Assembly (NCBI RefSeq): GCF_031085295.1 | Contig: NZ_JAVFWO010000001.1 | Span: 1 to 64,000 of the forward strand | Source: Microbacterium psychrotolerans | GTDB lineage: Bacteria > Actinomycetota > Actinomycetes > Actinomycetales > Microbacteriaceae | Direction of reading: 5' to 3' | DNA length: 64,000 nucleotides | Shown here: positions 10,660 through 12,945 of the stretch, piece by piece | How the letters are laid out: each line of letters starts with the position of its first letter | Position numbering within the stretch: the stretch's first letter is position 1 | The notes under the pieces: model-generated | Databases searched by the model: none | The model's input: the letters and a program-made list of their open reading frames with translations, nothing else | What the model was told of the DNA's origin: nothing | Made by a program: the position numbers and the translations under genes

Positions 10660-10695
10660 GTTCCTCCCCGCCGGCACTTCCAGGATACCGGGCGG

Positions 10696-10721
10696 AGGGG
10701 GCCTTGCGGCAAGGGCCCCCT
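10696..10721 (+). promoter_or_regulatory. Rifamycin-associated element (RAE)
   Basis: Inverted repeat with core CTTGCGGCAAG flanked by runs of G and C. Left arm AGGGGGCCTTG, loop CGG, right arm CAAGGGCCCCCT. The core is identical to the published RAE that precedes rifamycin-inactivating and rifamycin-protection genes of actinomycetes; here each flank carries one extra base compared with the form I remember. It lies 86 bases upstream of helR. Confidence 0.85.
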
Positions 10722-10734
10722 GGAGGCGCATACT
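10704..10734 (+). promoter_or_regulatory. Candidate helR promoter overlapping the RAE
   Basis: A possible -35 box TTGCGG (10704-10709) lies inside the RAE, and CATACT (10729-10734) could be the -10 box, 19 bases on. If correct, whatever binds the RAE would act directly on promoter recognition. Confidence 0.4.
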
Positions 10735-10806
10735 TGTCGGTCGCGACGCCTCCCCGCCCTTCCTCCACCAAACGCTGCGTCGTGATGTCCGCCAGGAGCA
10801 GATGCC

Positions 10807-12945
10807 GTGAATCCCATTCAGACCAGCCCTTTCGAGCTGCCCGAACGCCTCGCCGCCAAGTCCGACCCCGCACTGATCAGCGCCGACGAACAGCAGTTCG
10901 CCGCGATCGCCGACAGCCTGGCCCGGTCCATCGACGGCCTCGAGGGGCGCCTGTCCGAGCTGCGCCGACGCCCCGGCGGGCACGGGCAGGCTGGCCTCGA
11001 GCGCGACCTCGAGATCCATCGCCTCTCCGGACGCCTCCGCGTGCTGCGACGCTTCACGATGGACGCGTGCCTCGGGCGCATGGTGCCCGCCGACGGCTCA
11101 GAGCCCGTGTACATCGGCCGCTTCGGACTGACGGATGCCGCGGGGCGGCGCCTCCTCGTCGACTGGCGCACGCCGGCCGCCGAGCCGTTCTTCGCGGCGA
11201 CCCACGCGAACCCCTCGGGCCTCGCGAGTCGTCGCCGCTACCGGTGGACCGGTGGCCGCGTGACGGACTACTGGGACGAGGTGTTCACGGCCGACGGGCT
11301 CGAGCACAACGCCGCTCTCGACGACCAGTCCGCGTTCATCGCGAGCCTGGGCGCAAGCCGGTCGCCGCGCATGCGCGACGTGCTGGGCACGATCCAGGCC
11401 GATCAGGACGCGATCATCCGCGCCGGCTCACGCGGCTCCCTGGTGGTCGACGGCGGCCCGGGCACCGGCAAGACGGTGGTCGCGCTCCACCGCGCCGCGT
11501 ATCTCGTCTACTCCGACCCGCACCTGGGCGAGGGACGCGGCGGCGTGCTGTTCGTCGGCCCGAGCCCCGCCTACCTGTCGTACGTCGAGGACGTGCTGCC
11601 GAGCCTCGGCGAAGAGAGCGTGCAGACCTGCACGCTGCGCGAGCTCGTCGCCGAGGGCATGACCGCCGACGTCGAGCGCGACCCGCGCGTCGAGCGGCTC
11701 AAGGCCGACGCGCGCATGGTCGACGCGATCGAACCGGCGGTGCGGCTGTACGAGGAGCCGCCTGCCGAGGGACTCGTGGTCGAGACGCCCTGGGCCGAAC
11801 TGTGGCTCAGCCCGCAGGACTGGGCCGAGGCGTTCGCGTCGGCCGAGCCCGGCACGCCGCACAACGAGGCGCGCGACCAGGTCTGGGAGACGGTCCTCGA
11901 CATCCTCACCGACCAGGTGGACGGCGAGGAGGTGCCGCCGCACCAGCTGCGGCGGGCGCTCGCGCGTCACGAGGAGCTGACGCACGCCTTCGCGCGCGCG
12001 TGGCCACTGGTGGAGGCATCCGTCCTCCTGTCGGATCTCTGGTCGGTGCCCGCCTACCTGCGCCGCTGCGCGCCGTGGCTCACTCCCGACGAGGTGGCGG
12101 CGCTGCAGCGGCCCGACGCCACCGGGTGGACGACGGCGGATCTGCCGCTGCTCGACGCGGCACGGCGCCGGCTCGGCGACCCCGGTGCCTCGCGCCGTCG
12201 CCGGGAGCGGGAGGCCAAGCTCGCGCAGGAGCGCGAGTACATGGCGCAGGTGGTCGACCGCCTCAAGGAGGCCGGCGACGAGATGATGCAGTGGCTCGAC
12301 GGCGACGATCTGCGCAACAGCCTCGTCGACGACTCGGTGCTGGAGGCGTCCGACCCCGACCTGCTGGCCGGGCCGTTCGCGCACATCATCGTCGACGAGG
12401 CTCAGGAGCTCACCGACGCCCAGTGGAGGATGCTGCTGGCGCGCTGCCCGTCTCGCAGCTTCACGGTGGTCGGAGATCGGGCCCAGGCGCGGCATGGATT
12501 CCGGGAGTCATGGCAGGAGCGACTCGACCACGCAGGACTCACCGACGTGAGCATCGCCTCGCTCACCATCAACTACCGCACGCCGAGCGAGGTCATGGCC
12601 GAGGCGGAGCCGGTGATCCGGGCGGCGATCCCCGACGCGAACGTGCCCACGTCGATCCGTTCCAGCGGAGTCCCCGTGCTCCGTGCCGCGGTGACCGAAC
12701 GCGACGGCGTCCTGGGCGACTGGCTCGCGGCACACCCCGAAGGCACCGCCTGCGTCATCGGCGACCCGTCGTTCGCCGCGCAGGAGCGCGTGCGCTCGCT
12801 GACGCCGGAGCTCGCGAAAGGTCTGGAGTTCGACTTCGTCGTGCTGGTCGAGCCGTCGAGGTTCGGCGAGGGGATCGAGGGCGCGGTGGACCGCTACGTC
12901 GCGATGACGCGCGCGACCCAGCAGCTGGCGGTGCTCGAGGCGTAG
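10807..12945 (+). CDS. helR: RNA polymerase recycling / rifamycin-protection ATPase HelR
   Basis: A 712-residue superfamily 1 helicase-like ATPase of the HelD group. The N-terminal coiled coil (about residues 15-85) corresponds to the arm that enters the RNA polymerase secondary channel. The ATPase has Walker A GGPGTGKT (216-223), motif II VDEAQEL (529-535), VVGDRAQARHGF and SIASLTINYRTP, ending with LAKGLEFDFVVLVEP and YVAMTRATQQL. HelR-type proteins release rifamycin and stalled polymerase. The RAE upstream and the length favour HelR over general HelD. GTG at 10807 has AGGAG eight bases ahead; a nearer ATG gives only a three-codon frame. Convergent with sdaA. Confidence 0.93.
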   Translation: MNPIQTSPFELPERLAAKSDPALISADEQQFAAIADSLARSIDGLEGRLSELRRRPGGHGQAGLERDLEIHRLSGRLRVLRRFTMDACLGRMVPADGSEPVYIGRFGLTDAAGRRLLVDWRTPAAEPFFAATHANPSGLASRRRYRWTGGRVTDYWDEVFTADGLEHNAALDDQSAFIASLGASRSPRMRDVLGTIQADQDAIIRAGSRGSLVVDGGPGTGKTVVALHRAAYLVYSDPHLGEGRGGVLFVGPSPAYLSYVEDVLPSLGEESVQTCTLRELVAEGMTADVERDPRVERLKADARMVDAIEPAVRLYEEPPAEGLVVETPWAELWLSPQDWAEAFASAEPGTPHNEARDQVWETVLDILTDQVDGEEVPPHQLRRALARHEELTHAFARAWPLVEASVLLSDLWSVPAYLRRCAPWLTPDEVAALQRPDATGWTTADLPLLDAARRRLGDPGASRRRREREAKLAQEREYMAQVVDRLKEAGDEMMQWLDGDDLRNSLVDDSVLEASDPDLLAGPFAHIIVDEAQELTDAQWRMLLARCPSRSFTVVGDRAQARHGFRESWQERLDHAGLTDVSIASLTINYRTPSEVMAEAEPVIRAAIPDANVPTSIRSSGVPVLRAAVTERDGVLGDWLAAHPEGTACVIGDPSFAAQERVRSLTPELAKGLEFDFVVLVEPSRFGEGIEGAVDRYVAMTRATQQLAVLEA

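Follow-up and report, generated by a model that had tools for sequence, protein, structure and literature searches.

A rifamycin-associated element upstream of helR in Microbacterium psychrotolerans lies at the center of a rigid module with mirror-placed -10-like elements, suggesting a two-way promoter

The DNA analyzed here is a 64,000-nucleotide stretch of the Microbacterium psychrotolerans genome (positions 1 to 64,000 of contig NZ_JAVFWO010000001.1), which we refer to as the window. Within it, an inverted repeat at 10696 to 10721 precedes helR, an open reading frame on the forward strand at 10807 to 12945 that begins with a GTG codon at 10807, eight bases after an AGGAG at 10794 to 10798, and encodes a 712-amino-acid RNA polymerase ATPase. 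A first, sequence-only reading had called the product a HelD/HelR-type polymerase ATPase, and profile comparison identified it as HelR, with 1230.3 bits against the NCBIfam HelR family NF041254 (cut-off, 750). Scores for HelR_2 (418 bits) and mycobacterial HelD (373 bits) were each far under their own cut-offs. Sequence matches in the PDB were Mycobacterium smegmatis HelD (E value, 1.4e-102), a Bacillus subtilis-type HelD, and a short HelD fragment. That reading had also proposed a tree to separate HelR from general HelD. In a midpoint-rooted tree of 47 proteins, whose bootstrap was not fully settled, the window protein fell inside a 34-row HelR clade with support of 100/100, separate from the genus's own HelD paralogues (six) and from HelD proteins of the mycobacterial type (seven). 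HelR is described as taking rifamycin off RNA polymerase (PMC10719064, PMC11464796), the drug being displaced by a primary-channel loop (PMC11464796). By homology with actinobacterial HelR, for which this activity is reported, the helR product should strip rifamycin and nucleic acid off stalled polymerase, and the prediction that this organism has a native rifamycin response follows by homology.

The repeat at 10696 to 10721 reads AGGGGGCCTTGCGGCAAGGGCCCCCT and is arranged as AGGGGGCC-TTGCGGCAA-GGGCCCCCT, so that the arms AGGGGGCC...GGCCCCCT surround an exact rifamycin-associated element (RAE) core, CTTGCGGCAAG, on the forward strand at 10703 to 10713, 93 bases from the helR start. The placement of an RAE-bearing inverted repeat directly ahead of helR was thus borne out. 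Counting outward from position 10708, the first 11 base pairs are complementary at 10 places, and the outer arms pair best when the register is shifted by one base. The core matches exactly that of the 19-bp dyad consensus GGGnCTTGCsGCAAGnCCC, which we derived from 80 copies outside the genus; an extra base in each flank accounts for the shift of the outer arms. These extra bases, already remarked on in the sequence-only reading, are real but not peculiar to this locus: the same letters (C before, G after) occur in 14 of 61 copies from the genus and in 1 of 80 others, and we therefore regard them as a habit of the lineage. The exact core occurs once in the window; with up to one mismatch it occurs three times, the palindrome's other strand included (mean in shuffled sequence, 0.98). 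A search for further RAE copies had been suggested as well, and in the whole genome (4,538,994 bases; 4.54 Mb) the exact core was again found once, the other matches listed each having one mismatch. As anticipated, the element also overlaps a -35 of the rifamycin-protection gene that it precedes: TTGCGG at 10704 to 10709 lies 19 bp from CATACT at 10729 to 10734.

To place this locus in its genus, we collected 64 HelR loci from the 66 genomes with a match, namely, 63 over the cut-off (among 149 genomes) and 1 below it, leaving out a HelR fragment in genome G103 and genome G107, which has a HelD paralogue alone. The core lies upstream at 61 of the 64 loci (59 exact, 2 with one mismatch), roughly 25 to 252 bp from the extrapolated gene start, and at the other three (L086, L091, and L094) none was found with up to one mismatch. 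None of six non-HelR HelD paralogues from the genus has a core at this stringency, although one has a match with two mismatches. Given this linkage, a chance RAE upstream of helR is very unlikely.

The locus in the window is an ordinary member of the known RAE-helR pairing. Published work describes rifampicin-induced helR genes under RAEs in Streptomyces venezuelae (SVEN_6029) and Mycobacteroides abscessus (MAB_3189c) (PMC10719064, PMC8655204), both Class II HelD/HelR with an upstream RAE, as in the window. The sequence-only reading had described the pairing as established in Streptomyces; it is indeed a known one, but it is not confined to that genus, since two Microbacterium genes, from Microbacterium sp. 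PAMC 28756 and M. hominis SJTG1, already appear in a helR group (PMC8655204, Fig. A8 legend) that its authors tie to upstream RAEs, just as for the helR described here. The overlap of the RAE with the -35 of the gene-proximal promoter, seen in the window, is likewise reported for M. smegmatis (promoter P2) and, by homology, for M. abscessus (PMC10719064). Compared with SVEN_6029 and MAB_3189c, the palindrome in the window has flanks one base longer per side, and its genome has a single exact RAE core and an Arr of its own that lacks one. This Arr, a rifamycin ADP-ribosyltransferase (162.4 bits; cut-off, 130), lies at 970025 to 970387 of the same contig, about 960 kb away, with no RAE core near it within one mismatch. 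The earlier statement that helR has no rifamycin-modifying enzyme nearby is to be amended accordingly: the genome does encode Arr. We did not find rph in the genome, and no rox exceeded its cut-off (best score, 107 bits).

Across the class, the pattern GGNNCTTGCGGCAAGNNCC occurred in 165 of 394 genomes, compared to 17 of 394 for the reversed pattern used as a control. We examined 90 loci, 60 of them hand-picked for spread among the matches listed, and in 86 the gene directly downstream belonged to one of five homology groups: HelR/HelD, rox, rph, arr, or rgt. After removal of four loci with no assigned gene (L129, L201, L204, and L207) and six from the window's genus, 80 remained as the non-genus set (41 in the HelR group, 16 rox, 10 rph, 9 arr, and 4 rgt). 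Checks of one or two members per group put rox (NF033145) and arr (NF033144) over their cut-offs, while rph, scored on a partial stretch, and rgt gave best matches below theirs (NF041857 and NF000354, respectively). Among seven scanned members of the HelR group, three exceeded the HelR cut-off as partial pieces, one fell just under it, and three were of the mycobacterial-HelD/HelR_2 type. The placement of genes of these kinds under RAEs has in part been described before (PMC10719064, PMC8655204, and PMC7283461). We also considered further core sites in the genus as new regulon members and set them aside: in the two series of sites read (L008 to L037 and L108 to L127), the full module described below was confined to 13 HelR sites, 4 rox sites, and one further HelR site (L029), and the remaining sites lacked it.

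An information profile of the 61 genus copies and 80 other copies revealed that the RAE is the center of a rigid conserved module of about 80 bp, which in the window spans 10667 to 10746 (core -36 to +43, counting the first core base as 0, with the RAE center at base 5). Its spacing is the same in the 61 genus and 80 non-genus copies and in all five gene groups. The drug-inactivating rox, rph, arr, and rgt thus share one module and one spacing with helR, whose product protects the target instead. On the sense strand, a -10 element at module positions 26 to 31 lies 19 bp from the TTGCsG at 1 to 6. It is CATACT in the window and CAGAAT-like in other copies, and the pattern xAxxxT holds at this place for all but one copy in each set (79 of 80 outside the genus, 60 of 61 within it); outside the genus, A27 is invariant (80/80), T31 nearly so (79/80), and the first base is C in 77 of 80. 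From the distance to this -10 and the conservation of columns, we predict a sense start region at 10739 to 10743.

A second block of conservation lies upstream of the core, where A-21, T-17, and A-16 are each found in 79 of 80 non-genus copies. Because 10 - 27 = -17 and 10 - 31 = -21, the invariant pairs of the two blocks are exact mirror images about the RAE center. On the reverse strand, positions -16 to -21 spell a TANNNT that sits 19 bp from the palindrome's second TTGCsG. It is present in 78 of the 80 copies outside the genus and in 48 of 60 within it; when we scanned 120 offsets on both strands of the non-genus set, the runner-up place reached 10 of 80. The window accordingly has a predicted antisense -35, TTGCCG, in the other half of the RAE palindrome (10707 to 10712, reverse strand) and, at the exact mirror place of the sense -10, a predicted antisense -10, TATCCT (10682 to 10687, reverse strand). 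The single -35 of the sequence-only reading is present on the sense strand, but the palindrome holds a second one on the other strand with an apparent conserved -10 of its own. The antisense +1 would be the G at 10675 (reverse strand), 16 bases beyond the stop codon of the neighboring tetR, with transcription heading antisense into that gene; its column (C-28 on the sense strand) is C in 59 of 60 genus and 78 of 80 other copies. Shifted by one base, the same block reads CANNNT on the plus strand (-22 to -17) in 67 of 80 non-genus and 58 of 60 genus copies, so the -10 letters alone do not settle the orientation of the upstream element, and a second sense promoter is a possible reading of it.

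Two further candidates were considered and set aside. A strand-specific center base, which would oppose a dyad, was rejected (G in 35 and C in 26 of the genus HelR loci), as was the adjacent tetR as the regulator of the RAE, a tetR homologue lying upstream in 4 of 64 HelR loci, a count for which 35 of the 64 loci had less than 1 kb of upstream sequence. The dyad itself is kept beyond the two -35 hexamers, in its GGG/CCC flanks; this extent suits a dimeric DNA-binding protein and speaks against a two-way reading of the element.

To look beyond the class, we scanned named genomes with a pattern that matched at least 119 stretches, of which 80 were analyzed. The -10 letters are part of this pattern, so the independent data from the set are the hairpin described below and the gene alone, and two sites were counted on both strands (n = 83 in the hairpin test). 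The 80 stretches contain 81 module sites, and 75 of these precede one of the five gene groups. Of the other six, four reach the end of the stretch, an MFS transporter follows one, and the last, close to a contig end in Stenotrophomonas, is ambiguous. The matches include arr of Stenotrophomonas maltophilia (153.6 bits), arr of a Xanthomonadaceae metagenome-assembled genome (MAG) (226 bits), and, by local homology, an rph-like gene in a Chloroflexi MAG.

In many non-genus copies, a transcript beginning at the predicted antisense +1 would at once form a hairpin, and a T-tract follows it. We required a stem score of at least 14, a start within 4 nt of the predicted +1, and at least three T in the next nine bases, and compared the result with dinucleotide shuffles. 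By this test 33 of 78 non-genus copies had the structure (1 after shuffling; 3 and 2 of 78 in distant control stretches), as did 46 of 82 in the named set (shuffled, 1; controls, 1 and 2 of 80). The first 8 nt were fully paired within nt 12 to 36 in 31 of 78 non-genus copies, whereas a shuffled partner gave 5.3 on average and arms exchanged among loci gave 11.0 (maximum, 17 in 100 trials); in the named set, the corresponding values were 37 of 82, 7.9, and 17.9 (maximum, 25). Since full 8-bp pairing exceeds the arm-swapped controls, the hairpin arms covary. With seven of eight pairs, the excess over swapped arms was smaller (46 of 78 versus 33.2, and 55 of 82 versus 44.5). In these 46 and 55 copies with at least seven pairs, the nine bases past the hairpin held on average 3.7 and 4.7 T on the antisense side, compared to 2.7 and 2.4 on the sense side; the background is 1.5, so the sense side is enriched too. 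A looser test of a hairpin plus three T was likewise passed in both directions, by 39 of 78 (shuffled, 11) and 49 of 82 (shuffled, 21) in antisense and by 31 of 78 (shuffles, 7) and 28 of 82 (shuffles, 5) in sense. The hairpin may thus serve both directions, and because the sense direction passes above shuffles, it could end transcripts of the upstream gene. Outside the genus, we infer, an intrinsic terminator would often stop the antisense transcript at a length of about 30 nt.

The genus of the window differs in this respect. No terminator hairpin with a T-tract begins at the predicted antisense +1 in the window, and the antisense-terminator test failed among the genus copies, with a hairpin at +1 and a T-tract in 4 of 60 (shuffled, 2). 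The genus thus keeps the antisense -10 but mostly lacks the terminator. That the window and most of its relatives in the genus are without it counts against a two-way reading.

In Stenotrophomonas, we searched with the pattern freed of its -10 letters and found one site each in 36 of 91 genomes of the genus (control, 0). All 30 loci read have arr 63 to 73 bp past the core, a sense -10 of TAGACT, and an antisense -10 of TAATCT or TACTCT, both TANNNT. Among the 23 distinct antisense sequences, 22 pair fully over the first 8 nt; the arm-swapped control was equally high, giving no covariation here. The T-tract averages 6.7 of nine bases on the antisense side versus 2.3 on the sense side. Because their Arr proteins are 85 to 100% identical to the query, Stenotrophomonas counts as one more lineage rather than as 30 independent cases. 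On the question of a dedicated factor, the presence of the module in two phyla argues against one, while the length of the dyad argues for it.

Comparison across these copies establishes the identity of HelR, the RAE, the two mirror-spaced -10-like elements, and, in many lineages, the hairpin with its T-tract. From these we infer that the upstream element would act as an antisense promoter in competition with the sense one, both of them firing, and that rifamycin would shift the balance. We lean, somewhat beyond an even chance, toward the following account of the locus in the window. helR would be a rifamycin-inducible target-protection gene, and the RAE a palindromic -35 region common to two back-to-back sigma-A-type promoters. 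The sense promoter would drive helR and is probably weak, given its 19-bp spacer and a C in place of T at the first -10 base. The antisense promoter, pointing away from helR, also has a 19-bp spacer; as its -10 carries the T, A, and T that matter most, it would be the stronger of the two (first -10 base T in 79 of 80 copies versus C in 77 of 80 on the sense side). Presumably one polymerase at a time occupies the RAE, the promoters excluding each other, and the antisense promoter would act as a default polymerase sink that keeps the sense promoter low. Rifamycin would then release the sense promoter, either because of how arrested polymerase behaves kinetically or by means of a factor that recognizes the dyad with its GGG/CCC flanks; since plain competition would give no induction by arrested polymerase, one of these must add the switch. 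A wider claim, that every RAE is a symmetric two-way promoter, with polymerase initiation itself as the rifamycin sensor and no dedicated factor, and with a weak sense start opposed by a stronger antisense start that is often terminated at once, in Actinomycetota and at Stenotrophomonas arr alike, is one we advance tentatively and think on the whole unlikely.

The nearest precedent for such an arrangement comes from B. subtilis, where helD and pps each have a sense/antisense promoter pair forming a dual-promoter rifampicin alarm (PMC12802891, sections 45, 48, and 49). For helD, the antisense RNA terminates early, and rifampicin lifts the effect of antisense transcription (PMC12802891). The pair predicted in the window would resemble the helD pair, including its 19-bp antisense spacer. 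However, the B. subtilis promoters converge without overlap, and placing them so close that they exclude each other abolishes induction (PMC12802891), whereas the promoters predicted here diverge and have one palindromic -35 for both, for which reason we did not file the window as a B. subtilis-type alarm. The terminated antisense RNA of B. subtilis helD also has no counterpart in the window and few candidates in its genus (the 4 of 60 above), although many other RAE loci offer one. Promoters that interfere with each other are also described for rpoBC of M. smegmatis, where rifampicin changes the balance between them (PMC10719064, section 9). In PMC12802891 itself, the RAE figures as a control apart from the alarm and is left without an explanation. 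We found no description of a two-way RAE promoter in a search of mainly open-access literature, with few subscription journals or preprints, at the level of titles, abstract openings, and selected passages; within that coverage, the RAE-helR pairing is already known, and its setting in a mirrored module appears undescribed.

The chief alternative, which we consider a real possibility if not the expected one, is that the RAE is the operator of a rifamycin-responsive dimeric transcription factor, which would switch on the sense promoter downstream by activation or derepression. On this view the upstream block would belong to the site of that factor or be a second sense promoter, the hairpin would end transcripts of the upstream gene, and antisense transcription would have no role. 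The conservation of the 19-bp dyad past the -35 letters agrees with this, as do the sense-strand CANNNT (58 of 60 in the genus, 67 of 80 elsewhere) and the T that follow the hairpin in the sense direction as well. It is also consistent with M. abscessus, in which deleting half of the RAE abolishes induction, and with M. smegmatis, in which a sense start, P1, was mapped about 20 bp upstream of the RAE (PMC10719064). Such an operator would nevertheless not account for the opposite-strand TANNNT at the precise mirror position, for the retention of A-16 in 79 of 80 copies, or for the greater strength of the T-tract on the antisense side. A second sense promoter would lack a conserved -35 at a suitable upstream distance, and the factor would be needed in both Actinomycetota and Stenotrophomonas.

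Two other explanations seem to us far less probable. An upstream sense promoter such as M. smegmatis P1 would transcribe the palindrome (PMC10719064), which could then act as an RNA hairpin in the leader of that transcript, by attenuation or in a riboswitch-like manner. The core shows no covariation, though: 9 of its 11 columns are identical in all 61 genus copies (which were preselected at no more than one mismatch, 59 of 64 loci being exact), and the -10 stands at a fixed distance from it, so that we think this role highly improbable. Least probable of all is that a general HelD housekeeping gene happens to lie behind a chance palindrome and does not respond to rifamycin. HelD does recycle stalled polymerase without the drug (PMC10719064), but the HelR clade, the NF041254 score, and the contrast between 61 of 64 HelR loci and 0 of 6 paralogues with a core all stand against it.

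Returning to the two-way promoter, a 2026 paper describes the mechanism of the RAE as awaiting explanation, with binding by some unknown factor as a possibility (PMC12802891). With an antisense -10 at the mirror place and a hairpin followed by a T-tract, that question becomes definite and testable. Should the antisense promoter matter, a single logic, based on polymerase or on promoter competition, would govern the inducible control of helR, arr, rox, rph, and rgt in different phyla. A two-way RAE, a proposal that draws on about 250 copies, may help to explain how bacteria sense rifamycin.

Outside Actinomycetota, the conserved module of about 80 bp that comprises a rifamycin-associated element (RAE), a sense -10 and a predicted, mirror-placed antisense -10 is found complete ahead of arr in Stenotrophomonas (stretches L341 to L370 and L280). 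A single RAE site was present in each of 36 of the 91 Stenotrophomonas genomes; in L280 the element lies at 1943-1953 and arr at 2017-2451. Across these stretches the sense -10 and the predicted antisense -10 are both near consensus, and the predicted antisense start bears a hairpin with a T-tract. We also observed modules in two MAGs: one from Xanthomonadaceae, where the module lies ahead of arr (L296:7172-7678) and the genome has two RAE sites, and one from Chloroflexi, where the gene behind the module is rph-like (L282, near 1892).

The predicted sense start has a conserved feature of its own. In copies from outside Microbacterium, RAE core positions +36 to +50 (first core base, 0) hold a conserved, almost palindromic CGGCCGAGGCC-like stretch, and among the Microbacterium copies a hairpin begins at most 4 nt from core +37 in 22 of 61, compared with 7 in shuffles.

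Some modules precede genes beyond the five usual groups (HelR/HelD, rox, rph, arr and rgt): a DrrA-like ABC transporter gene (L207, minus strand), an MFS transporter gene (L237:119), a 396-amino-acid open reading frame lacking a Pfam match (L201:1605) and, with a partial module, an alpha/beta hydrolase gene (L129).

Within Microbacterium, three HelR loci (L086, L091 and L094) had no recognisable RAE in the 400 bp upstream. At L101, from genome G037, the HelR match is split into two pieces, each in a different open frame, with the RAE retained beside it; this gene is perhaps frameshifted or decaying. Another Microbacterium genome carries paired RAE cores spaced 41 bp apart (L111; G094, contig C1, 2709251 and 2709292). 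In Rhodococcus oryzae (L240), a HelD-type gene and rox each have a separate RAE (cores at 2185 and 5959) within a span of less than 4 kb. In the window's own genome, G000, there is a gene for Arr, a rifampin ADP-ribosyltransferase, that has no RAE (contig C7, 970025-970387; L337); it lies about 960 kb from helR.
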